From NCBI GenBank assembly GCA_021845665.1, contig JAJZVO010000022.1:1-64000 (forward strand): 64,000 nt of DNA. Direction: 5' to 3'. This DNA comes from Bacteroidota bacterium. GTDB taxonomy: Bacteria > Bacteroidota > Ignavibacteria > Kryptoniales > JAKASW01. The first letter of the stretch is position 1. Every line of letters starts with the position of its first letter. The position numbers and the translations under genes are program-made. This document shows positions 17,987-31,976 of this stretch, one piece after another. The notes beneath the pieces are model-generated. The model did no database searches. It saw only the letters and a program-made list of their open reading frames with translations, and was not told where the DNA came from.

Positions 17987-19117
17987 TCAGAATCCTTTCC
18001 TGCTCAATCTGAACGATGCAAAAGCGGGGACAACGACGGCGAATATAGCGAGCGGATAAATTTGGTTGTAGATTTCCGCGAAATCGGATCCCTTCAACAT
18101 AATTGCCCTCAAGGCCGACAAGAAATACCGTCCGGGAAGAAGATACGTTAGGAACTGGAGAGCGGGCGCCATGCTGTTTATCGGGAATACAAAACCAGAT
18201 AGTATGAACGTCGGGAGAATAGAGAGAAGACTCGCGACGAGGAATGCCATCTGCTGTGAGTTAGTGAAAGTCGAAATCAGGATTCCTATGCTCAGGGTGC
18301 CGATCAGGAAAATAACTATGGTGACTGCGAGGAGTAGAATACTGCCCCGGACAGAGACGCCGAAGAGAATGAAGCTTACCGAGATGACCAACACTGCCGC
18401 GAAGAGTGACAGTACGAAATAGAGCGTAGTCTTGCCGAGTATTATTTCGAGCGGTGTGGTTGGAGCCATGCTTATGTGTTCGAGGGTGCCTCGTTCTTTT
18501 TCGCGAACTACGGAGATTGCGGGTGTGACTATACTGAGGATCATCAGGATAAAGCCGATAAGTCCGGGTACGAGGAACTTAGCGCTTTTCAGCTCGGCGT
18601 TGAAGTAGACCCGCGGCCTGTAATCGATGCCGGCTGCCGAGAGATGGAGTCCCTTCTGCTCGATGTAATGGGCAGTAAGGTCGGCCGAATAGTTTTGGAG
18701 AACTCCGTCAACATACCCCATGACGATCGTTGCGGTATTAGAATTTGCTCCGTCAATCAGCACCTGGACGCTAACTTTGCGGCCGAGCAGAATCATTTTG
18801 GCATAATCCCGAGGGATCACGAGGACTGCCCTTGCTTTTCCGTCCTGTATGAACTTGTCGATGGCGCGCTCATCGGGCACGTTGCCGGCGAAATCGAAGT
18901 ATTCGGTACTGAAGAATTTTTGCTGGAGCTCCCTGCTCTGTTCGGTCATGGACTCGTCCAGGACACCCATCCTGACATGCTTGACGTCGAAGTTCAGGGC
19001 ATATCCATACAGTAGGAGCATGAGCGTCGGCACGAGGATGATAGCCGAGAGCGAGAGCTTGTCCCTCTTCAATTGACGGTATTCCTTCACATAAATGGTG
19101 AGGATGTTTTCAATCAC
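17987..19117 (-). CDS. ABC-2 type permease of exporter (YbhS-like)
   Basis: 376-aa ABC-2 permease with the same plan as its downstream paralogue: one N-terminal membrane helix, a periplasmic domain, then a cluster of helices containing EKERGTLEHISMAPTTPLE and LPGRYFLSALRAIMLKG. It begins with GTG at 19117 and overlaps the end of the ATPase gene by eight bases; the next permease starts one base after its stop. It is inferred to be half of the permease pair of a drug or lipid exporter. Confidence 0.88.
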   Translation of the reverse strand: MIENILTIYVKEYRQLKRDKLSLSAIILVPTLMLLLYGYALNFDVKHVRMGVLDESMTEQSRELQQKFFSTEYFDFAGNVPDERAIDKFIQDGKARAVLVIPRDYAKMILLGRKVSVQVLIDGANSNTATIVMGYVDGVLQNYSADLTAHYIEQKGLHLSAAGIDYRPRVYFNAELKSAKFLVPGLIGFILMILSIVTPAISVVREKERGTLEHISMAPTTPLEIILGKTTLYFVLSLFAAVLVISVSFILFGVSVRGSILLLAVTIVIFLIGTLSIGILISTFTNSQQMAFLVASLLSILPTFILSGFVFPINSMAPALQFLTYLLPGRYFLSALRAIMLKGSDFAEIYNQIYPLAIFAVVVPAFASFRLSRKGF

Positions 19118-20048
19118 CGGAATTGCTCCTTGAAGGACGCGTCTGATTCACAAAAATGTCCTCAAGTGTCGGCAGTGCTTTCGTGATCTTGTACTGCGAA
19201 AGGGAGTTTTTCTTCAAAACTTCCTCGAGCGCGTGCAGCGGCTGGTTCGTCTCGACGTAGACGTGGACGTTGTTTCCGTAAGTCGCGGCATCCGAAATCC
19301 ACGGTTCCCGCTCGAGTAAGTTGAAAAGGGTCAACGGCTGAGCGGTTTCGATCTCAAAGAGCGGGAGATCCGAAAATTTCCTTCTTATTCCTTCCGGGGA
19401 GCCGTTTACGACTATCCTGCCGAGATGCATCATGATGATGTTCTCACAAAACTCGGCCTCTTCGAGATGGTGGGTCGTGACTATGATAGTGGCTCCCTCG
19501 CCGGAGAGTTGTCCAATAAGCTGCCAGAATTTATCACGTACAACAGGATCGACGCCGCTTGTAGGTTCGTCAAGAAACACAATACGCGGATGGTGGAGCA
19601 CCGCACAGCCGAGTGCCAGCCGCTGTCGCCATCCGAGCGGGAGGTCACTCGTCAGAAGGTTCTCTCTCCCTTTCAAGTCGGCAACCTCCACGACCCACGA
19701 AAATCTGTCTTTAAGCTCGCTCTTGCTCAGCCCGTAAACTCCGCCATAGAATTCTATATTCTCTTTGACGGTTAGGTCGCTGTACAGGGAGAACTTCTGC
19801 GACATGTAACCGATATTCTCGCGGACCTTATCAGGATGCGCGGCCGCATCGAACCCGGCCACGTGCATCAGACCGGAGGTCGGCATCATCAACCCGCACA
19901 GCATTTTTATGGTGGTAGATTTTCCGGCACCGTTTGCACCGATGAAGCCGACGATCTTCCCTTCCTCTATCTCGAAGGATATCGAGTCGACGGCAGTGAA
20001 GCTGCCGAACTTTTTGGTGAGTCCTTCTGCTTTTATTGCGAGGGCCAT
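19110..20048 (-). CDS. ABC exporter ATPase, degenerate signature half
   Basis: 312-aa ABC ATPase. Walker A GANGAGKS and Walker B IVFLDEPTSGVDP are intact, and the H-loop histidine is present in VTTHHLEEA. The signature is LPLGWRQRL, not LSGGQ-type, as in the C-terminal half of YbhF-like proteins. In a head-to-tail dimer this subunit would supply the working Walker A/H-loop and rely on the partner (21396-22304) for a canonical signature. It sits between tolC and the two permease genes. Confidence 0.9.
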   Translation of the reverse strand: MALAIKAEGLTKKFGSFTAVDSISFEIEEGKIVGFIGANGAGKSTTIKMLCGLMMPTSGLMHVAGFDAAAHPDKVRENIGYMSQKFSLYSDLTVKENIEFYGGVYGLSKSELKDRFSWVVEVADLKGRENLLTSDLPLGWRQRLALGCAVLHHPRIVFLDEPTSGVDPVVRDKFWQLIGQLSGEGATIIVTTHHLEEAEFCENIIMMHLGRIVVNGSPEGIRRKFSDLPLFEIETAQPLTLFNLLEREPWISDAATYGNNVHVYVETNQPLHALEEVLKKNSLSQYKITKALPTLEDIFVNQTRPSRSNSGD

Positions 20049-20057
20049 TTTTTAGCC

Positions 20058-21380
20058 TTACAGTTCTCCTGTCGCTTTTTCCAGACCGACCCTTGCAATT
20101 TCCAGGTCTGTCAGAGCCTGCGAGTAATTCAGTTTGGCCTGAAGTAGTGCGACTTCAGAATCCATCAGGTCTGTATTCGTGACGAGACCTACTTTGAATT
20201 TCTGGTCCGATATCCTGTAGCTTTCCTCGGCATCTTTAACGGTGGCGGCGGCAACTCTTATCCTATCGATCGATTGTTTGAAATTCAGGTAGCTCTGTGT
20301 GACGTCGAGGTAGACGTTATCGGCGGCCTGCTGCTCCGCAAGCTGTGCCTGCTCGCTTTGCGCTTTGGCTTCGTCGACCTTCGATTGCGTCTGTCCCCAG
20401 TTCCAAATCGGCAGGCTCACCACGAGGCTGGCGTCCCAGGTATCCTTGAACACATTCTCGGTCGGAAATATCCTCTGATTCGGTTTCTGGTAATAGAAGT
20501 TGCCGACAATAGAAACCTGGGGAAGATAAGCGCCCCATGCCGCAGCAGCCATGGCGCCTGCCGCCCTGGCCTTCAACCCGAGGGATCGAAGCTCGCTCCT
20601 GTGCTCAAGCGCCTGATTCAGCAACCGGCCAAGCTTCGGCAGCGTTGTATCCCCCGCCTGAGGAATGGACTTTATCTGGAATTTTGTGTCGAGCGGAACA
20701 CCGAGAACGTTGTTCAGGGAGACCTCGGCAAGCTTCACGTTGTTCTGCGCGTTCAAAAGCATAAGTTCCCCGTTAGAGACCTGGACCTTGGCACTGAGAA
20801 CGTCGCTCTGGGTCAGCATTCCCTGTGCCATCATGTTCTCGGCCTGCTGGTAGTGCGACCTTGTCCTGTCGAGATTCTCCCGCATGAACTCCTCGGCCTG
20901 CTCGGCGTTATATACGTTCCAGTACGCGGTTGCGATCTGCACCTTCAGGTTCGCCTTGTCGGTTTTGGTGTCGTATCCGGCGGCCTCCGCGTTTTCTTTC
21001 GCGGCCTTAGAAGAGTTGAGCAGTTGGAATCCAGTGAAGATAGGTTGCTTCACACTCAGCTCGAGATCATAGTTATTAAAAACGTTCGGTGAAATCTGGA
21101 AGGAATTTCCGAACCCGGGGATGCTCACCGGAAGAGTAAGAAGTGATGGCGGGATCTCAGACAGACGAGTATATCTTCCTTGAAACGCGAGGCTGGCCCA
21201 CCTGTTCGCATTCACTTCATGGTATTTCGCTTCCGCCGAGATGGAGCTCAATTCCGAAATCTTCAGTGATTTGGAATTCTCGAGCCCTACCTTCAGCGCT
21301 TCCTGCAAGGTTAGCGGGGTCTGCGCCAGCGCGGCGGTTGCCATACCCACAATTGCCATCATGACCAGTAATTTCCGCAC
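20058..21380 (-). CDS. TolC-family outer-membrane efflux protein
   Basis: 440 aa with a signal peptide ending near ALAQ and the two-repeat outer-membrane efflux layout: TPLTLQEALKVGLENS at the start of repeat one, coiled coils around residues 130-230 and 330-400, and the YLNFKQSIDRIRVA and KVGLVTNTDLMDSEVALLQA segments of repeat two. It would form the trimeric outer-membrane channel for the exporter. It lies between the two ATPase genes, 9 bases before the downstream ATPase. GTG start. Confidence 0.9.
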   Translation of the reverse strand: MRKLLVMMAIVGMATAALAQTPLTLQEALKVGLENSKSLKISELSSISAEAKYHEVNANRWASLAFQGRYTRLSEIPPSLLTLPVSIPGFGNSFQISPNVFNNYDLELSVKQPIFTGFQLLNSSKAAKENAEAAGYDTKTDKANLKVQIATAYWNVYNAEQAEEFMRENLDRTRSHYQQAENMMAQGMLTQSDVLSAKVQVSNGELMLLNAQNNVKLAEVSLNNVLGVPLDTKFQIKSIPQAGDTTLPKLGRLLNQALEHRSELRSLGLKARAAGAMAAAAWGAYLPQVSIVGNFYYQKPNQRIFPTENVFKDTWDASLVVSLPIWNWGQTQSKVDEAKAQSEQAQLAEQQAADNVYLDVTQSYLNFKQSIDRIRVAAATVKDAEESYRISDQKFKVGLVTNTDLMDSEVALLQAKLNYSQALTDLEIARVGLEKATGEL

Positions 21381-21395
21381 TTTCAGTATCCTCCT

Positions 21396-22304
21396 TTATG
21401 TCTTTATCAGACTTGCAAATACATTATCTAGTGATGCACTAATTTCTTTCAGCTCTGCTTTTTCGTCGATCCGGCTTCTGACGGCATTCAATATTGTGCC
21501 GACCTTGTCGAGGAAATCCTCAGCGACGAGAAACGTTATCCTGTCGCCGATAACCACGAGATTCCGTGCCAAGTCGAATTCCGAGACGACATCGAATGCT
21601 CCTTTAAGATTTCCTGAATGGATCTCGAAAACATGGAGCGACATTCCCGAGATGAGAACCGGGACAGAGTCATACCGAAGTAGTTTCCCTTGGCTGAAGA
21701 GGGCAACCCGGTTACACCTGCCGGCCTCGTTGAGGTAGGGAGTGGCTACTAGAATGGTCATCTCATTCCTTAGGAATGAGGCAAGAATGAGCCACAACTC
21801 CCTTCTCGATACCGGGTCGACGCCTGTCGTGGGCTCGTCCAATATCAGGATCTTCGGCTGGTGGATGACCGCGCAGCAAATGCCGAGTTTCTGTCTCATG
21901 CCTCCGGAAAGCTGATCGGCAAGCCTTCCCTTGAATTCGGTCAATCTCGCGAATTCGAGAAGGCGTTCGCCGCGTTCCTTCCAGTCACGGACTTTCCTGA
22001 TCTTACCGAAGAACTCTATATTCTCCCACACCGTCAGGTCGCCGTAGGCCTGGCTGACCTGCGAGAGGTAGCCGACCTCCTCTTTGAGCTCACGCCGATT
22101 CTTCTCGAAAGTCTTGTCGTTGACCACGATGTTCCCGGCGGTCGGCTCCAGTGCACCCGCTAGCATTCTAAGGAACGTCGTCTTGCCTGCTCCATCCGGA
22201 CCGATTACCCCGACGAGCTCGCCGCGCTCCACGCTGAGCGACACTCTGTCGACTGCAATCAGGTCGCCGTATTTCTTCGTAAGCTCAGTTGCCTGTATGA
22301 TCAT
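21396..22304 (-). CDS. ABC exporter ATPase, degenerate H-loop half
   Basis: 302-aa ABC ATPase with Walker A GPDGAGKTT, signature LSGGMRQKL and Walker B ILILDEPTTGVDP. The H-loop position reads VATPYLNEA, with proline where the histidine is expected, as seen in N-terminal halves of YbhF-type proteins. It is complementary to the ATPase at 19110-20048, which keeps the histidine but has a changed signature. Together they look like a split YbhF. It lies 64 bases after the HlyD gene. Confidence 0.9.
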   Translation of the reverse strand: MIIQATELTKKYGDLIAVDRVSLSVERGELVGVIGPDGAGKTTFLRMLAGALEPTAGNIVVNDKTFEKNRRELKEEVGYLSQVSQAYGDLTVWENIEFFGKIRKVRDWKERGERLLEFARLTEFKGRLADQLSGGMRQKLGICCAVIHQPKILILDEPTTGVDPVSRRELWLILASFLRNEMTILVATPYLNEAGRCNRVALFSQGKLLRYDSVPVLISGMSLHVFEIHSGNLKGAFDVVSEFDLARNLVVIGDRITFLVAEDFLDKVGTILNAVRSRIDEKAELKEISASLDNVFASLIKT

Positions 22305-22368
22305 GTGTTCTCTAATAGAGAAGCCATCTTCAGCGCTGAGCGCAAACGGCTTAGCGCGTAAGTTGCCT

Positions 22369-23331
22369 CTACTCTGTATAGATTGTCGCGTCCGCGGGGA
22401 GTCCGGCCTTCAGGTAGCCCTGTGGATTGGCTATCTCCAACTTCACCGCAAATACAAGTTTGATACGGTCCTGCTTGGTCTCCACATTCTTCGGCGTAAA
22501 TTCAGCCGTCGGGGAAATGTAAATTACTTTACCGTCGAACGGATGATTGGGCATACCATCAAGGACGACCCTGGCCTTGTCTCCGAGTCTGATTCGGGCA
22601 AGGTCCACCTCACCGATGTAAACCGTCATCTTCATTCTCTTGAGGTTGGCAATAGTGTAGAGGGGGGTACCGATGGTTGCAAAATCACCCGGCTCCTGAA
22701 GCTTATCGAGGACCGTACCGCTGAACGGAGCCCTCACATAAGAGTGCTCGAAGGCGATATTCGCGTTGTTGAGTGCGGCCTGTGCCTCTTCGACCTGGGC
22801 GGCGGCACTTCTAATTTCCTGCGGCCTGGCGTAATGGCGAAGTTTCTCGAGCGTCTGGCGGGCCGATTTCAACTGGGCCTGAGCGACGTCGTATTGTGCC
22901 TGGGCGGCATCCATTTGCGACTGAGAGATACTGCGCTCCTTGTAGAGACGGCTCGTGCGGTCAAAGGCCAGCTGGGCAAGATTGAAATTTGCCTCTGCCT
23001 GCTTCACTCCTTCTTCACCGACCCTGACATCTTCGCTTCGCGCACCCGCCATGACGAGATCGTATTGCTGTTTTGCCATCACCAGTGCGGCTTGTGCCTG
23101 TTTGACCTGCTGGACGAGAGACCTGTGATCTATCTCGGCGAGGGTATCTCCCTGTCGGACCAATGCGCCTTCCTCGAAATTCATCCTGATAATTCTGCCG
23201 GGCACCTGTGCGGCCATGGAACTCTCCGTCGCTTCAACTGTGCCCGTACCGGTAACCTCATTCCTTTTACCGTTGCTCCCGCATCCATACAGGAGTAGAG
23301 CGAGAGCGAGCAATCCGGCAAATTTTCCCAT
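22369..23331 (-). CDS. HlyD-family membrane fusion lipoprotein
   Basis: 320-aa periplasmic adaptor. The N-terminus has a lipobox (LLLYGC) after a hydrophobic segment, so it is probably lipid-anchored. Then come the first half of a lipoyl/barrel domain (VPGRIIRMNFEEGALVRQGD), a long Ala/Gln-rich coiled-coil hairpin (about residues 70-190), and the returning half (YVRAPFSGTVLDKLQEPGDF). It would bridge the inner-membrane ABC permeases and TolC. It begins two bases after the TetR stop region, so the two are co-transcribed. Confidence 0.9.
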   Translation of the reverse strand: MGKFAGLLALALLLYGCGSNGKRNEVTGTGTVEATESSMAAQVPGRIIRMNFEEGALVRQGDTLAEIDHRSLVQQVKQAQAALVMAKQQYDLVMAGARSEDVRVGEEGVKQAEANFNLAQLAFDRTSRLYKERSISQSQMDAAQAQYDVAQAQLKSARQTLEKLRHYARPQEIRSAAAQVEEAQAALNNANIAFEHSYVRAPFSGTVLDKLQEPGDFATIGTPLYTIANLKRMKMTVYIGEVDLARIRLGDKARVVLDGMPNHPFDGKVIYISPTAEFTPKNVETKQDRIKLVFAVKLEIANPQGYLKAGLPADATIYTE

Positions 23332-23332
23332 A

Positions 23333-23959
23333 CTATCTCTTTCTTCCTTTCTCGGTAAGAACTCCTTCGGTGAACATTCTGAAGACCTGTTTTGGAACTT
23401 CCGATTCAGTCAGTGCATGCTTGGAAAGGAAATCGGTCTTCATCAATTCCCTGACCACGCCGATGTAGGCCGTGGTGAAGACGACCGGATCGATATCTTT
23501 CCTGATCCAGCCTCCTTTTTGTCCTTCGACGAACAGCTTCTGCCATCCGAGGGCGAGCTGTTTCTGGATGATCGCATCTATTTCCCGGAAGAGATTGGGC
23601 GCATTCAGCCTGACTTCAGTAAGTATGCGCTGCCATTGTTCGTTGATGTGAGTGCCGACGATCTCAGAAATTGCCTGTATCTTGTCGACCGAGGACTCCT
23701 TCATCGATTGAATTTTCTCGAACGCTTCGAGGAGGAGCTTCATCCTTAGGAGTACGACCTCCCTTAGTAACTCCTCCTTGCTCGAAAAGAACTTGTAAAC
23801 TGTTTTCTTGCTGATTCCGAGTTCTGCGGCGATCTCGTCGATGGTCACCTTTTTGAACCCGAAATCAGCGAATCTCCTGTAAGCGACATCGAGTATATCC
23901 AGACGAACATTTTCCGTGCGTGGCACCATGGACACCAATTTAGTATTTTCAGTTTCCAT
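23333..23959 (-). CDS. TetR-family transcriptional regulator
   Basis: About 208 aa. The N-terminal helix-turn-helix reads TIDEIAAELGISKKTVYKFFSSKEEL, typical of TetR (AcrR) repressors; the C-terminal ligand domain is not classifiable by eye. It is the first gene of the exporter operon and probably represses it in the absence of the exported compound. The start is uncertain: the ATG at 23959 is used, an in-frame TTG is at 23965 and another ATG at 23926. No clear operator palindrome was found upstream. Confidence 0.88.
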   Translation of the reverse strand: METENTKLVSMVPRTENVRLDILDVAYRRFADFGFKKVTIDEIAAELGISKKTVYKFFSSKEELLREVVLLRMKLLLEAFEKIQSMKESSVDKIQAISEIVGTHINEQWQRILTEVRLNAPNLFREIDAIIQKQLALGWQKLFVEGQKGGWIRKDIDPVVFTTAYIGVVRELMKTDFLSKHALTESEVPKQVFRMFTEGVLTEKGRKR

Positions 23960-24032
23960 TGTCAAGAGGAGGAAAAAGGGATTAAGGAATAGCGGAGTAA
24001 TGGAATGGCGGAATTGCTGCCGGATAGATGAT

Positions 24033-26000
24033 TCAGCTGAAGAGCTGGAGGAAGCTCTTAGCGATTATTTCGAGATCGAGCCAGACAGATTGGTTCCGGG
24101 CGTAATAGATATAGAGCTTCTCGACTTCTTCAGTAGATAGCGACTGCCCGCGGTTCAGCTGTACCACCCCGGTCACGCCCATCTTTCCGAAGAGCTCGTC
24201 GCTTCCCTGCATGTAGTATTCAGAGCGTCCTACCGTGCTCATCTTTCCCGTAAGGACTTTCGGCAATTTCCTGTACACCCTTCTCAACGCGTTGTCCCTG
24301 CCGCTCATGAGCGACGGCCACAACAACGCCAGGCCGGTCAACGCAAACAGGATATCGAGCGCTCGTTTTGCCTTCACGTTCCGGGTCCTATTGAGGTGAT
24401 AATCGATGTCCACGAACGGAATGTCCGCGAGGCCGTCGACATAAGTCTTGCCGATAATTACGTCCATTGTATCCGGGACCAATTTGAAGCTGACTGAAGG
24501 GTCCTTCACGCTCCCAACCGCCTGAAGCACTTGCGAATAAGATACCTTACCCGATGCGAAGATGACGTCGTCGATCTTCCGTTCGCGGATGAGCCTGGGA
24601 AGTTCGGCGAGGTTCCCGACGACTTTTATTCCAAGAAGGCGCTGCTCGGATGTACCTCCTTCCGACACGATACCGACGATATCATAGCCCATAGACACTT
24701 TGGAGCGAATCTTTTTTATAAGCTGCACGGAGCGCTCATCCATACCCACGACGAGCGTCTTCCTTCCGAAGAAAGGATGCCTTGAAGTCCCGACCGAAGT
24801 CCTGAGCTGGTACAGGAGGCGCCAGCCCGGAAGAATAACGAACATCATGGCACTCGCTATCAGGACTATTAATCTTGAAAAGGCAAATTCCTTGAAGAAA
24901 AAAGTAAGCGAAGAGAAAAGGAGAAACGTGAGGAATGCCGTAAGAAGAGAAAGTCTGAAAGAGAATTTGTTCTCGCCGTAGACTCCAACAGAGGAGCCGA
25001 AGAGTACGAACGCGATCGCTGGAGCGATGTAAAAATAGGGCTTGCCGTATGACGGAATGGCATAGATTTTATGTGTGCGGACGAACTCTCCGACGAACAT
25101 TGCGATCATGATGACGACAAAATCGACCACCATCGGCCAGACTTTGCCGAGCCAGAGGACGGCGGAGCGCATCTGACGGTTAAGGAGAATCGCCAGCCTG
25201 AGGAGGCGGGACAAAAGCGTATTCATACCGTATCGTTTTTCCACGAAAACGCTCATCGCCCGGTAGAACTCGTAAGTCTGATTGATGTTGCTTCGCCGCG
25301 TGCTCTCCCCTTTGAAGTGGATTGCCGATGTACTCGGCGTATAATACACTTTGTACCCGGCCCTTTTGATCTTGTAGCAAAGGTCGATGTCCTCGCCATA
25401 CATGAAGTAATCTTCGTCGAAACCGCTTACTTCCTCGAAAACATGCCTCGGAATGAACATGAAGCTACCTCCGATGGCGTCGACTTCATGGTCTTCTTCA
25501 GGATTGAGGTAAGTAAGATTATATCTGCCGAACAGGCGTGTACGAGGGAATACGGCGCTGAGACCTGATATTTTTGTGAAGGCTACCCACGGCGTCGGGA
25601 ATCCTCTCCTGCAAGTCTTCTGGAGTGTGCCGTCCGCGTTCAATACCTTGCAGCTCGTCGCGCCGGCATCCGGATGCTCCTTCGAGAAGGCGAGCATTTC
25701 CCGGATGGTATTCTCGCCGACAACAGCATCAGGGTTTATGAGGAGCAGGTATTCACCCGACGATGCTTCAACTCCCTGATTGTTCGCTTTCCCGAACCCG
25801 AGGTTCAAATGGTTCTCGATGAGCTTCACATCCTGGAAGTTCTTCTTCAGGAACTCGACCGTATCGTCATCCGAGGAGTTGTCTACCACTACGATCTCCG
25901 ACTCAATTCCTTCAAGTGAACGCCTTAGAGAATTGATCAGGCTTTCGAGGAAACCGCGGACATTGAAGCTGACGATGACTACGGAGACGAGTTTATTCAA
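24033..26000 (-). CDS. GT2 glycosyltransferase fused to a core-deleted polyprenyl sugar-phosphate transferase
   Basis: 655 aa in three parts. Residues 1-270 are a GT2 rhamnosyltransferase-like domain (VVIVSFN, VVDNSSDDDT, the INPDA metal motif near 90, YFMYGEDIDLCYK near 203). Residues 285-395 hold several membrane helices, and 410-530 are the nucleotide-binding-like domain of WbaP/WcaJ-type proteins (GRKTLVVGM, DVIFASG). Residues 543-655 resemble both ends of the bacterial sugar transferase domain: KAKRALDILFAL at the start, then LTGKMSTVG and GVTGVVQLN with WLDLEIIAKS. The catalytic middle (the R-ERVG and KFRSM blocks, and DE-PQ-LNV) is absent. TTG start overlaps the upstream stop as TTGA. 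Phosphotransferase activity is therefore unlikely; GT2 activity is plausible. Confidence 0.85.
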   Translation of the reverse strand: MNKLVSVVIVSFNVRGFLESLINSLRRSLEGIESEIVVVDNSSDDDTVEFLKKNFQDVKLIENHLNLGFGKANNQGVEASSGEYLLLINPDAVVGENTIREMLAFSKEHPDAGATSCKVLNADGTLQKTCRRGFPTPWVAFTKISGLSAVFPRTRLFGRYNLTYLNPEEDHEVDAIGGSFMFIPRHVFEEVSGFDEDYFMYGEDIDLCYKIKRAGYKVYYTPSTSAIHFKGESTRRSNINQTYEFYRAMSVFVEKRYGMNTLLSRLLRLAILLNRQMRSAVLWLGKVWPMVVDFVVIMIAMFVGEFVRTHKIYAIPSYGKPYFYIAPAIAFVLFGSSVGVYGENKFSFRLSLLTAFLTFLLFSSLTFFFKEFAFSRLIVLIASAMMFVILPGWRLLYQLRTSVGTSRHPFFGRKTLVVGMDERSVQLIKKIRSKVSMGYDIVGIVSEGGTSEQRLLGIKVVGNLAELPRLIRERKIDDVIFASGKVSYSQVLQAVGSVKDPSVSFKLVPDTMDVIIGKTYVDGLADIPFVDIDYHLNRTRNVKAKRALDILFALTGLALLWPSLMSGRDNALRRVYRKLPKVLTGKMSTVGRSEYYMQGSDELFGKMGVTGVVQLNRGQSLSTEEVEKLYIYYARNQSVWLDLEIIAKSFLQLFS

Positions 26001-26728
26001 TGCTTCCTCAAGCCGAAGAAATTCAGTACCCTGCCGATTCCCAGTATGAGGACTATTTTCACCCCTTCGAAGACGATTTTCTTCGACATCTTGCTTGTTC
26101 CGACGCGGCGCTCGGTGAAGACGATCGGGACCTCGACGATCTTGAAACCTTTCCTGTAAGCGCGGACGTTCATCTCGACCTGGAACGCGTAGCCATTCGA
26201 CCTGATCGTCTGAAGGTTTATGGATTTCAGGACTTCAACTCTGAAAGCCTTGAAGCCGCTGGTCATGTCGTTGACAGGGACGCCCGTAACGACCCTCGCA
26301 AATATGTTTCCACCATAGCTCAGGAGAAGTCGTTTCATTGGCCAGTTAAGGACCGAAACGCCGAAGGCATAGCGTGAGCCGATCGCAAGGTCCGCATGGT
26401 CCGTGAGAGCTTTGCAGAACCGTGGTATCTCACCGGGCTCATGCGAAAGGTCGGCGTCCATTTCAATCACATAGCCATAATCGTTGTCGATGGCATACTT
26501 GAACCCTGCGATGTATGCCGTGCCGAGTCCGCCCTTTCCTTCCCTTCTCATCAGTTTAACGCGTTGATCGGTCTGAGAAATTCTCTCTACTATCTTTTGA
26601 GTCCCGTCGGGGGAATTGTCGTCGACAACAAGAATATTCGATTCAGGGCATGCATACAGCACGCGTGGTATTACGGCGCCAATGTTCTCGGCTTCGTTAT
26701 ACGTCGGAATAATCACAAGCACTTTCAT
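25997..26728 (-). CDS. Polyprenol-monophosphomannose synthase-like GT2
   Basis: About 243 aa from the ATG at 26728, which gives the family-typical start MKVLVIIPTYNEAENI. In-frame starts further up are an ATG at 26743 and a GTG at 26776. GT2 motifs: VVDDNSPDGT, the DxD in IEMDADLSH, and the DPM1-like segments MTSGFKAFR and EVPIVFTERRVGTSKMSK. Such enzymes move mannose or glucose from GDP/UDP-sugar onto a polyprenyl phosphate for later use outside the membrane. The stop overlaps the fused GT2 gene by four bases. Confidence 0.85.
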   Translation of the reverse strand: MKVLVIIPTYNEAENIGAVIPRVLYACPESNILVVDDNSPDGTQKIVERISQTDQRVKLMRREGKGGLGTAYIAGFKYAIDNDYGYVIEMDADLSHEPGEIPRFCKALTDHADLAIGSRYAFGVSVLNWPMKRLLLSYGGNIFARVVTGVPVNDMTSGFKAFRVEVLKSINLQTIRSNGYAFQVEMNVRAYRKGFKIVEVPIVFTERRVGTSKMSKKIVFEGVKIVLILGIGRVLNFFGLRKH

Positions 26729-26821
26729 GACGGCTTCAGACATCGGATCGCTCGCACTCTGAGTCACTTGACTCACTACGGGGGCCGCAGCTATGCGGCA
26801 GATTATGAGAAATGTTGGTGA

Positions 26822-28255
26822 TCACGCGTGCCCTTTCCCAAGCATTACGTGGAATATCGTCCAGAATAATATTTGAAAATCCAACCTCAACGACATATTC
26901 TCGATGTAATAGAGGTCATACTGCAGGTCTATCTTAACATCCTCAATACTTTCATCGTACTTGTACTTGACCCTGGCAAGGCCCGTCAGTCCCGGTTTGA
27001 CCTTGTACCTTCTCTTATAAAGCGGGATCTCCTTCGAAAGTTTCTCGACAAAGAAAGGTCTTTCCGGACGCGGCCCGACAAGGCTCATCTCGCCTTTAAG
27101 CACATTCAGGAATTGAGGGGTCTCGTCAAGATGCGACTTACGGAGAAATCTCCCAACCTTGGTTACGCGAGGATCGTTCTTCGATGCCCAGACAGGCCCT
27201 GTATGCTTCTCGGCGTCCACGTACATCGAGCGAAATTTTCTAAGCGTAAAATTCTTGAGGTCTTTTCCGACCCTCTCCTGCCTGTAAATTATCGGCCCCT
27301 TAGAATCTATCTTAATCGCGATGGCGATAATTACCCAGAGCGGGAGCCCCGCGATCAGGCATATCGCGGAGACCATGATATCCATAAGGCGTTTCGTCAC
27401 AACCTGCCACTGCTGCATAAGCTGCGGGACGACGTCGATAAGCGGGAAGCCATACAGCTGTGAGGTTCGGACCTGGCCGGCTATCGAGTCATAAAGGTCG
27501 GGGACGATCTTGATGTCGGCATCCGCCCCGTTTATACTCGTTATGATACCGGGAATATTCTCCTTTTCGTTCTCTTCGAGGGCAATTATTACTTCCTTCG
27601 CCTTGTATTTTTCGATCGTATCGTTCAGGTCGGCAGACTTCGAAAGGAGCGGAGCGGGGAGACCTTCTGCCGCAACTGAAGCTCCGACGCCGACAAAGCC
27701 GAGCGGTTCGTAGCCAAGGCTTCTGTATTTCTTCGCGAGATCATAGACCGATCTTGCTCTCTCACCGCAGCCGACTATTATCGCCTTCTTGAGTCCGATG
27801 CCGCGCAACAACAGGCGTTTCTGCACTGTCCTGAAAAGCACGCGTGAGAAGGAGGCGAAGAACACGATGACACACCAATAAAAGAGAAGGAACATTCGAA
27901 TATGGGGAATTCTCCCGGAAGTGGCATCGTCAAAGAAGATAGCGAAGAACAAGATGGCCACGCCAAGCGTGGTTATTTTGAGTATTGCGATAATTTCTTC
28001 AAGGCGTGAGCTCAAATAGCTGAACTTGTAGAGTCCCCAGAACCAAAAGAGGAACATCAGGAAAAGGGACAGAAGGACAACAGGTCCCCAGAAATCAGGA
28101 ACGGCCATAACCCTGAAGAGGCCGCTGCGGACGCGGACATAATAGTAAAATGCATTCGCGGCAAGCATGGCGACGAAATCGCTGGTGACGAGGAAGAACA
28201 GATTCCCTTGCTTGGTAGTTAACTTCTCGAGGCTACCCAAGATCCCTGCGCCCAT
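26822..28255 (-). CDS. Polyprenyl glycosylphosphotransferase (WbaP/WcaJ family), initiating enzyme
   Basis: 477 aa. The N-terminal third has about five membrane helices. The middle has the nucleotide-binding-like domain (KKAIIVGCGERA). The C-terminal sugar transferase domain is complete: a re-entrant helix after TKRLMDIMVSA, YRQERVGKDLKNF, LRKFRSM, SHLDETPQFLNVLKGEMSLVGPRPERP and KPGLTGLARV. It would put the first sugar-1-phosphate on undecaprenyl phosphate at the cytoplasmic face, starting the polymer made by this locus. It is the intact counterpart of the degenerate domain at 24033-26000. Confidence 0.92.
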   Translation of the reverse strand: MGAGILGSLEKLTTKQGNLFFLVTSDFVAMLAANAFYYYVRVRSGLFRVMAVPDFWGPVVLLSLFLMFLFWFWGLYKFSYLSSRLEEIIAILKITTLGVAILFFAIFFDDATSGRIPHIRMFLLFYWCVIVFFASFSRVLFRTVQKRLLLRGIGLKKAIIVGCGERARSVYDLAKKYRSLGYEPLGFVGVGASVAAEGLPAPLLSKSADLNDTIEKYKAKEVIIALEENEKENIPGIITSINGADADIKIVPDLYDSIAGQVRTSQLYGFPLIDVVPQLMQQWQVVTKRLMDIMVSAICLIAGLPLWVIIAIAIKIDSKGPIIYRQERVGKDLKNFTLRKFRSMYVDAEKHTGPVWASKNDPRVTKVGRFLRKSHLDETPQFLNVLKGEMSLVGPRPERPFFVEKLSKEIPLYKRRYKVKPGLTGLARVKYKYDESIEDVKIDLQYDLYYIENMSLRLDFQILFWTIFHVMLGKGHA

Positions 28256-29711: not shown

Positions 29712-31976
29712 TTGAGAATTGCTTTCTTAGTGGATAGTCCTCCTTCCGACATATCGAATGCTTGCGGTGTCGGTGATTATACACATCAACTATCCCGTTC
29801 TCTACAAAATAACTCTTTGCAGACGAGAGTCTTTGACAGGATCGAATGGAACAAAAGAGGGACAATTGGTCTCATAAGAGAACTGAAAGCATCTAGCCCC
29901 GATATTCTTCATTTGCAATATCCAACGATCGGTTACATACGATCATTCCTTGTGCCTTTGATTGCGCTCTTCCCGCCAGCACCCCACGTCGTCTTGACGG
30001 TTCACGAATTTACCCCCGCTCACCCTGTCAGGAAAATCTTAATAGGCCTTATGGCAAGACATGCTGGCGACATTATTTTCACGTCTGACTTTGAGCGACG
30101 GGCCTTTCTGACGCGCCATCCCGAACACGAGGAGATTTCACGAGTAATTCCGATCGGAAGCAATATCGACCTGCCCGCAGACGGCGATACAACGGAAAGG
30201 GATGCGGCCTCTGTAGTTTATTTCGGCCTCATAAGACCCGAGAAGGGCATCGAGGATTTCATTGACCTCGTTAAATTGAGCACCGGGCAAGGACGGAGAT
30301 TCAGGTTCAGGATTGTCGGGACCCCTCATCCGAATCAGATTTCGTATTACAAAGGGTTGAGAGAGGAAACAGCACGGCTCCCGATCCAATGGGACGTCGG
30401 CTGTCCGGCGGATGAAGTGGCGCAGATACTCAGAGGCTCGACATTTGCCTACCTTCCCTTCCCTGACGGTGCTTCAGATCGAAGAGGCTCGCTCCTCGCG
30501 GTCCTCGGGAACGGGTTGGCGACCGTAACCACATCCGGAACTCAAACGCCTCCGGAATTGGCGCAAGCAGTCTCGTTCGCGTCCTCACCCGCCGAAGCGC
30601 TTCGAGAGCTGGATGGACTGTCCAATTCTCCTTTTGAAAAATCAAGTAAGGTAGAATCTGCTGTCAGGTTTGCCCGTGCTCGTTCATGGGACGACATTGC
30701 TGCCAGTCACCTCTCTGAATATGAAAGGATGCGGTACATCAAACCTGACACAAGCACTGTCGGAGTTCGATGTTCTCACTTGCGCGAGCCTAGGGTGAAG
30801 TCCGGGATGCAGTCTGAAGACAGGTTTCACCCAGAGAGGGCCAGTACACTCCTCAGGTTTTCGGACAAGTACTTGGGAATCCCGATCGCTTTCTTGATTG
30901 GCCTAATGAAAAAGAAGGCGAACGTCCCGGAGAATCTGGAAAGGATTGCACTTTTGAAGACTGCAGCCATCGGAGACACCATACTCACGTCCGCCGTCAT
31001 AAGAGACATCAGGGATAGGTACCCAAAATCCGAAATAGTGATGTTCGCCGGTTCGAGCAACATTGAAGCCGCGGAAATGCTTGAAGGACTCAACAAGGTA
31101 ATTGAACTCCCAATACGTAATCCCTTCGCTTCAGGCAGGCTCATACGAAGCGAAGGAGAGTTCGACGCTCTAATCGAATTCGGTCCCTGGCCCAGAATAG
31201 ATGCTATTCTAACTTCATTCGCCAGAGCAAAGTACAAGATAGGATTCAAAACAAAAGGCCAGTTCCGACACTATGTATATAGCGTTGCAGTTCCACATTC
31301 GTCTTACACGCATGAGGTGTTCAACTTCAAGAAATTGCTAAGGCCGCTCGGCATCTCCGGTGCAAATCTCCCAAATATTTCCATCGAAGGTGAATTCGAA
31401 GATTCAAACTATGTGGTAGTTCACATGTTTCCGGGAGGATCGAGATCATATCTTAAGGAGTGGGGCGAGGACAACTGGATCGCGCTCGTCGGCTCGTTGG
31501 CAAGGTTGGGATTGAAAGTGTATTTGACAGGGGCTAAGTCCGACGGCAAGAGAGCAATGCGAATAAAAGATGAAGTGGGAAGTGAAAAGGTCGTAGTAAC
31601 TGCGGGGATGTTTTCGCTGCGCGGTACAGCTTTGCTGCTTAAGTCTTCTAAGCTCGTGATATCGGTGGACACTGGTGTCATGCATTTGGCTTCAGCTCTC
31701 GGTTGCAATCTCATCGCGCTTCACGGCCCTTCTTCACCATGGCGGTGGGGCCCATTATCCGATAACGCAACAGTCTTTTACAGGAACAGGATCGGGCCTT
31801 GTATCGATCTCGGATTTGAGAGTAGGTGCGGAATTAATCGGTGTATGAATGAGATTACCGTGGAGGAGGTCATGGAAAAAACGCGATCTCTGGTGGGGAT
31901 GCACGAAGGACGCGATTCCGAAGGTCCTTGCCGGACCTCAGATAAGGATGCGGAGAAGTTTGAGGGACATTTCTGA
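29712..31976 (+). CDS. Fused GT4-GT9 glycosyltransferase
   Basis: 754 aa with two complete GT-B enzymes in one chain. Residues 1 to about 345 are GT4-like: MRIAFLVDSPPS, the glycine loop GVGDYTHQLSRSL, YFGLIRPEKGIEDF and PFPDGASDRRGSLLAVLGNG. A linker of about 60 residues follows. Residues from about 412 are GT9 (ADP-heptose transferase-like): LLKTAAIGDTILTSAVIRD, HMFPGGSRSYLKEW, the VSVDTGVMHLASALGCNLIALHGPSSPWRWGP-type donor site (read as ISVDTGVMHLA then LHGPSSPWRWGP). Start is TTG at 29712 with GGAG eight bases upstream. The acceptors are unknown, but the fusion suggests two successive sugar additions to one lipid-linked chain. Confidence 0.88.
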   Translation: MRIAFLVDSPPSDISNACGVGDYTHQLSRSLQNNSLQTRVFDRIEWNKRGTIGLIRELKASSPDILHLQYPTIGYIRSFLVPLIALFPPAPHVVLTVHEFTPAHPVRKILIGLMARHAGDIIFTSDFERRAFLTRHPEHEEISRVIPIGSNIDLPADGDTTERDAASVVYFGLIRPEKGIEDFIDLVKLSTGQGRRFRFRIVGTPHPNQISYYKGLREETARLPIQWDVGCPADEVAQILRGSTFAYLPFPDGASDRRGSLLAVLGNGLATVTTSGTQTPPELAQAVSFASSPAEALRELDGLSNSPFEKSSKVESAVRFARARSWDDIAASHLSEYERMRYIKPDTSTVGVRCSHLREPRVKSGMQSEDRFHPERASTLLRFSDKYLGIPIAFLIGLMKKKANVPENLERIALLKTAAIGDTILTSAVIRDIRDRYPKSEIVMFAGSSNIEAAEMLEGLNKVIELPIRNPFASGRLIRSEGEFDALIEFGPWPRIDAILTSFARAKYKIGFKTKGQFRHYVYSVAVPHSSYTHEVFNFKKLLRPLGISGANLPNISIEGEFEDSNYVVVHMFPGGSRSYLKEWGEDNWIALVGSLARLGLKVYLTGAKSDGKRAMRIKDEVGSEKVVVTAGMFSLRGTALLLKSSKLVISVDTGVMHLASALGCNLIALHGPSSPWRWGPLSDNATVFYRNRIGPCIDLGFESRCGINRCMNEITVEEVMEKTRSLVGMHEGRDSEGPCRTSDKDAEKFEGHF

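Follow-up and report, generated by a model that had tools for sequence, protein, structure and literature searches.

A GT2 glycosyltransferase fused to an ancient, inactive shell of a large phosphoglycosyl transferase

Introduction

Among the monotopic enzymes that initiate the synthesis of bacterial surface sugars, large phosphoglycosyl transferases (PGTs) form the most abundant class, and the role of their non-catalytic parts is still under study. Fusions of PGTs with glycosyltransferases (GTs) were reportedly described by O'Toole et al. 2021. PGTs joined to other enzymes of their pathways are known as bifunctional PGTs, or Bi-PGTs (PMC10942596). The window analysed here, a stretch of 64,000 nucleotides, carries a gene in which a GT2 domain precedes a large-PGT module that seems to lack its catalytic core, which raises the question of what such a module is and what it could still do. 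In the open-licence literature we found no account of a PGT pseudoenzyme or of an architecture combining a GT2 with an inactive PGT. The best reading of the evidence is that the 655-residue fusion is a membrane-associated GT2 with an ancient, inactive transferase shell as its dock or scaffold.

Results

The fusion gene (24033-26000, reverse strand, as are all of its parts described below) encodes 655 residues from a TTG start at 26000, upstream of which lies a GAGG-type ribosome site. Its product begins with a GT2 domain (residues 1-260; 25221-26000) and continues with four predicted membrane helices (24786-25148; residues about 288-309, 317-338, 348-368 and 376-402 in the model of residues 285-655), a CoA_binding_3 domain, the 'DUF' of large PGTs (24393-24785; residues about 406-536), and a Bac_transf remnant that forms a shell without an active site (24036-24392; residues 537-655). 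Pfam places Glycos_transf_2 at 6-129 (1.3e-21), CoA_binding_3 (PF13727) at 348-509 (6.1e-14) and Bac_transf at 579-654 (4.9e-11), the last match lying above the gathering score and covering only positions 94-178 of the 179 in the profile. The Pfam matches, the model and a profile match to WbaP agree on a large-PGT architecture, with a four-helix bundle and PF13727 ahead of the PGT part. Bundle, CoA_binding_3 domain and re-entrant helix follow in the same order as in large monotopic PGTs of the WbaP/WcaJ type (PDB 8t53), but unlike these the fusion has no Asp-Glu, PRP, ERVG or FRSM and carries a GT2 domain in front.

Upstream of the fusion lies a DPM1-like GT2 gene encoding 259 residues (25997-26776, reverse strand), a conserved partner gene in Ignavibacteria and Fibrobacter loci. 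Its stop overlaps the fusion start by four bases (TTGA; 25997-26000, reverse strand), an overlap from which translational coupling of the two genes is probable. Further upstream is an intact large PGT of 477 residues (26822-28255, reverse strand), which matches positions 1-178 of the Bac_transf profile (5.6e-68). A Bac_transf search of the window's genome (95.6% complete) found two places: this neighbour and a second that is taken to be the remnant, which itself passes the Pfam cut-off. The genome thus appears to have no other intact monotopic PGT.

The sequence-only reading of this locus had described the C-terminal part as a WbaP-type domain with both flanks kept and the catalytic core lost. 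The partial Pfam profile, alignment with the neighbour and the WbaP profile comparison confirm this, and the flanks are all present (LTGKMSTVG at about 583-591, GVTG...LN at 608-616 and WLDLEII at 640-646). As to the three blocks given as missing, R-ERVG and KFRSM are truly deleted: the 71 residues from P305 to L376 of the neighbour correspond to 11 from P562 to R573 of the fusion, a deletion of about 60 residues. The helix of the DE-PQ block, however, persists with other residues: R574-V575 (24276-24281) stand where the neighbour has the catalytic Asp-Glu (D377-E378), and R577-K578 where it has P380-Q381. A further change, absent from the earlier account, affects the uridine-binding motif PRP (neighbour 395-397), which has become RSE. 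The fusion thus retains none of the Asp-Glu dyad, PRP, ERVG and FRSM that mark a monotopic PGT enzyme. When compared with the structures of WbaP and PglC, as had been suggested, the C-terminal family profile of the fusion matched both (1.5e-27 for the solved WbaP, 8t53, and about 1e-17 for PglC), aligning across the gap with the catalytic block skipped.

These losses extend through the family. The Q-x-R-V-G and K-F-R-S-M columns of the alignment, 82-100% conserved in the neighbouring PGTs, are deleted in 91% of fusions, and the remaining fusions, mainly WOR-3 members, have degenerate residues there. Asp-Glu is kept in none of 103 scorable fusions; at the former Asp-Glu columns these carry R (28), K (14) or H (5) in the first position and K (33) or R (3) in the second. 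DExPQ is intact in all 45 neighbouring stand-alone PGTs recovered from relatives, and D377-E378 is 100% conserved in the neighbours. Bi-PGTs also combine a pathway enzyme with a PGT module, but the PGT module of the fusion family is dead in every scored member. That the remnant is still a phosphoglycosyl transferase, acting through other residues of the fold shell and KPGxTG loop that remain, is hardly credible with Asp-Glu, PRP, ERVG and FRSM all gone and an intact PGT sitting in the operon. Judged by its sequence, the fusion is not a PGT enzyme; it has the architecture of a large PGT and is a GT2, and the loss of the four motifs supports the earlier proposal that the remnant is not itself an enzyme. 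A regular-expression match to FRSM in one sequence (L094) proved to be a chance occurrence elsewhere in the protein. In the fusions L121, L123 and L129 and those of WOR-3 (L052, L055, L058, L060 and L093), the middle segment that links the re-entrant helix to the GxxSxVG motif is longer and degenerate; these fusions may represent intermediate stages in losing the catalytic block.

The shell itself is well preserved. In PglC, Lys7-Arg8 and Ser23-Pro24 determine the re-entrant topology of the membrane helix (PMC6133551). The fusion has the same spacing, with K545 and R546 standing 17 and 16 residues ahead of the helix-breaking P562 (determinants K545-R546, D549 and P562; 24315-24368), and the Lys-Arg pair and the Pro are 91-99% conserved. 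Among fusions, K545, R546, D549, P562, G591, Y633 and D642 are retained in 91-100%, and conservation of D549, G585, G591, K/R606, G608, Y633, N636 and D642 is 92-100%. Alignment with the neighbouring PGTs also identifies a retained KPGxTG loop (K606-x-G-x-T-G611; 24168-24185), the basic residue of which is K or R in 95% of fusions.

With AlphaFold2 the mean pLDDT was 83 for the whole fusion. A model of residues 285-655 reached 77 and contains four membrane helices. With the whole protein, the Foldseek match list was taken up by GT2 structures and is silent on the C-terminal part, which was modelled alone; with this model of residues 285-655, WbaP was the top match (1.8e-11). VIA-align superposed model residues 253-371 (protein 537-655) on PglC over 114-117 residues, with an rmsd of 2.9-3.1 Å and Z of 10.6-10.9. 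Alignment with WbaP over the whole modelled C-terminal part has an rmsd of 16 Å, at which the relative placement of the domains is unreliable, and the dimerisation hairpin region has a pLDDT under 50. A VPD...IIGK...GLADIPF segment of the CoA_binding_3 domain occupies the place of the WbaP β-hairpin, with low model confidence at 513-532. The suggestion of a membrane dock fits these results: conservation is among the highest at the residues that set the re-entrant topology, and the model reproduces the shell of PglC.

In the GT2 domain, NPD (89-91), GED (202-204) and H228 are invariant or nearly so in 58 aligned members, the catalytic columns themselves (NPD, ED) being invariant, and the model has a GT-A fold that superposes on 6p61 with Z 23.3 and rmsd 1.9 over 185 aligned residues. 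Because the catalytic columns are present, the domain is probably active. No NCBIfam GT2 model reached its cut-off with the fusion; the TIGR01556 rhamnosyltransferase model scored 48.0 bits against a cut-off of 200.55. With GT2 enzymes that use a lipid-linked acceptor (TIGR01556 and the EpsD model NF041875), the fusion shares the GT2 fold and the catalytic columns, but the profile matches are weak and fall below all curated cut-offs, and any analogy with GtfC/GtfD of P. gingivalis would be functional only. The operon and the fusion itself suggest a polyprenyl-PP-sugar as the acceptor, and the GT2 probably adds its sugar after the adjacent initiating enzyme.

How old is the inactive form? A full-length fusion is present in 55 of 61 relatives; of the other six, one is truncated by the end of its contig and several are incomplete. 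End-to-end fusions occur in at least 121 of 296 sampled genomes of the phylum, and the fusion with its deletion was also found in candidate phylum WOR-3, so that the same fusion and the same deletion are indeed conserved across relatives, the pattern that had been expected of a functional module. Relatives with a full-length transferase domain in the fusion, which would have pointed to a recent internal deletion, were looked for and none was found. Nor was an ancestor with an intact PGT: the longest frames of the phylum (G319, G315, G086, G180, G226, G150, G281 and G158) are all without the core, the WOR-3 and Calditrichota searches gave no clear intact-domain candidate among the matches listed, and a plasmid search for an intact-domain fusion gave only GT2-domain matches among the records listed. 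In pairwise comparisons of the window with near relatives, dN/dS (omega) comes to about 0.05-0.06 for the remnant and 0.02 for the GT2, values that are approximate with dS near saturation, and the remnant is under purifying selection in the window's genus. As read from these sequences, the catalytic loss is ancient and the inactive form has been kept across several phyla. Three simpler origins were rejected: a recent internal deletion or assembly artefact, as the same architecture occurs in many genomes; a pseudogene in the window's genus, as omega is about 0.05 and the frames are open; and a recent duplicate of the neighbour at 26822-28255, with which identity over the shared part is 23%.

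The usual order in the window's class is PGT, (DegT-type aminotransferase), DPM1-like GT2 and fusion, often followed by accA and murA, and an intact PGT lies upstream on the same strand within 0.7-3.6 kb of the fusion in 46 of 55 cases. Seven loci retain the remnant without an adjacent PGT (G020, G022, G025, G030, G039, G048 and G057). Of the loci examined in other lineages, those of WOR-3, Saprospiraceae, Chitinophagaceae and Calditrichota have no PGT in the fetched flanks, and those of Fibrobacter have no intact PGT adjacent to the gene. The WOR-3 fusion is surrounded by lptE, a peptidase gene and a priA-like gene, the Saprospiraceae fusion adjoins recR, and the intact PGTs of the WOR-3 and Saprospiraceae genomes checked are located elsewhere. 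At four Ignavibacteria loci (L068:311-1294, L073:1006-2325, L086:3857-5236 and L110:1577-2896), the large PGT that stands alone upstream of the fusion is itself missing catalytic residues, with D-G, D-K, D-V or N-E for D-E and PEP or PRA for PRP. Both PGT modules of these pairs may therefore be inactive; the four genomes also contain other full-length matches to Bac_transf.

Remnant length is graded across lineages, being longest in WOR-3 and some Bacteroidota and shorter in Ignavibacteria, and KPGxTG is absent from the Saprospiraceae and Chitinophagaceae fusions. The whole PGT part is missing from Calditrichota members, which extend at most to the beginning of the re-entrant helix, and from Fibrobacter members, in which the bundle persists together with a reduced CoA_binding_3 domain. 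In several Bacteroidota families the GT2 is followed by a short tail that repeatedly, though weakly, matches the final portion of the CoA_binding_3 profile (with the database size set to 100,000, E is mostly 1.5e-5 to 0.5; three give no match). Bacteroidota GT2 proteins of about 390-430 residues are nested in the fusion family and share the recR synteny at some loci but, unlike the fusion, have lost the membrane bundle and PGT remnant. The GT2-domain tree, in which these short forms fall inside the full-length fusions, is a quick tree with a long outgroup branch and an unsure root, and the Calditrichota form may be truncated or ancestral. Because a single clade of GT2-only forms is rejected (p-AU 7.8e-5), the module has probably been lost more than once. 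Since several lineages keep the GT2 without remnant or module, the dock is not essential to the GT2 everywhere; likewise, module loss with the GT2 kept in several Bacteroidota lineages means that coupling through the module would be no general requirement.

Discussion

We consider it fairly probable that a module derived from a large monotopic PGT (Lg-PGT) keeps a working GT2 at the inner membrane. This proposal is built on the loss of the active site, its age, the selection on the remnant and the predicted fold, and from these we infer docking, acceptor and sugar order. The most economical account would have a bifunctional ancestor lose its PGT activity, with initiation passing to a separate PGT and the shell being retained as a means of keeping the GT2 on the membrane, close to its lipid acceptor. 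The four-helix bundle, nucleotide-fold domain and re-entrant helix would place the GT2 at the cytoplasmic face of the membrane, where it would extend the undecaprenyl-PP-sugar produced by the operon's intact PGT with one more sugar, probably the second. More loosely, the bundle and CoA_binding_3 domain may let the fusion pair with itself or with the PGT.

This last step leads to a reading in which the module serves the neighbouring PGT as a specific partner or regulator, forming a mixed dimer through the bundle and the CoA_binding_3 domain and coupling or tuning initiation and second-sugar transfer. Physical coupling of the fusion to the initiating enzyme is possible by analogy: WbaP dimerises mainly through its DUF, the CoA_binding_3 domain, which makes a mixed dimer plausible (PMC10942596), and is inhibited by UMP, and for another large PGT, activation by a dimer-promoting protein has been proposed (PMC12802240). 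The operon with the PGT is conserved in the window's class, and at L068, L073 and L086 the neighbour has lost catalytic residues yet remains beside the fusion, as a structural partner might. However, operons also persist for reasons besides contact, adjacency is absent in the other lineages examined, and the remnant is retained at the seven loci where no PGT is adjacent, so that we hold this role to be possible rather than probable. It is doubtful, too, that the remnant is a vestige, either a passive part of the membrane anchor or useless and on its way out. The graded shortening across lineages, down to a CoA_binding_3 fragment in several Bacteroidota, is what decay would produce, but the purifying selection is strong, particular residues are highly conserved in the window's genus and class, and the model of the fusion is confident and compact.

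The inactive site might instead bind the lipid acceptor, undecaprenyl-PP-sugar, and present it to the GT2. Basic residues bind UndP in PglC (PMC10519829), the former Asp-Glu columns of the fusions are often basic and the basic residue of KPGxTG is kept; but K606 is only the presumed counterpart of the UndP-binding Arg145 of PglC, and basic residues would also suit a membrane surface, which leaves acceptor binding an unlikely role as it stands. Taking acceptor binding and pairing together, we tentatively entertain a pseudo-PGT family of Bacteroidota, Ignavibacteria and WOR-3, in which the dead module would either hold the lipid acceptor or serve as a mixed-dimer partner that passes Und-PP-sugar from the initiator to the GT2.

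Whichever role applies, a module from which catalysis has been removed, whose other parts are kept in many lineages and then lost stepwise in others, amounts to a set of matched natural constructs, with which the functions of membrane bundle, nucleotide-fold domain and re-entrant helix can be probed. The family also calls for caution in annotation, as its members exceed the Bac_transf gathering score but are not to be counted as initiating enzymes.

Additional observations

Beside the fusion of L195 (G040:C40), a reverse-strand frame from position 696 encodes an 828-residue PGT in which a polytopic transferase, WecA/MraY-like by eye, is joined to a complete large monotopic PGT. In the window, a forward-strand gene at 29712-31976 encodes a 754-residue protein with a GT4-like region and a GT9 heptosyltransferase domain. 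In place of the accA and murA genes found in most relatives, the fusion is followed directly downstream by an efflux-like cluster (17987-23965, reverse strand) comprising a TetR regulator, an HlyD-type subunit, two ABC ATPases, a TolC-like protein and an ABC-2 permease, some of them assigned by eye.
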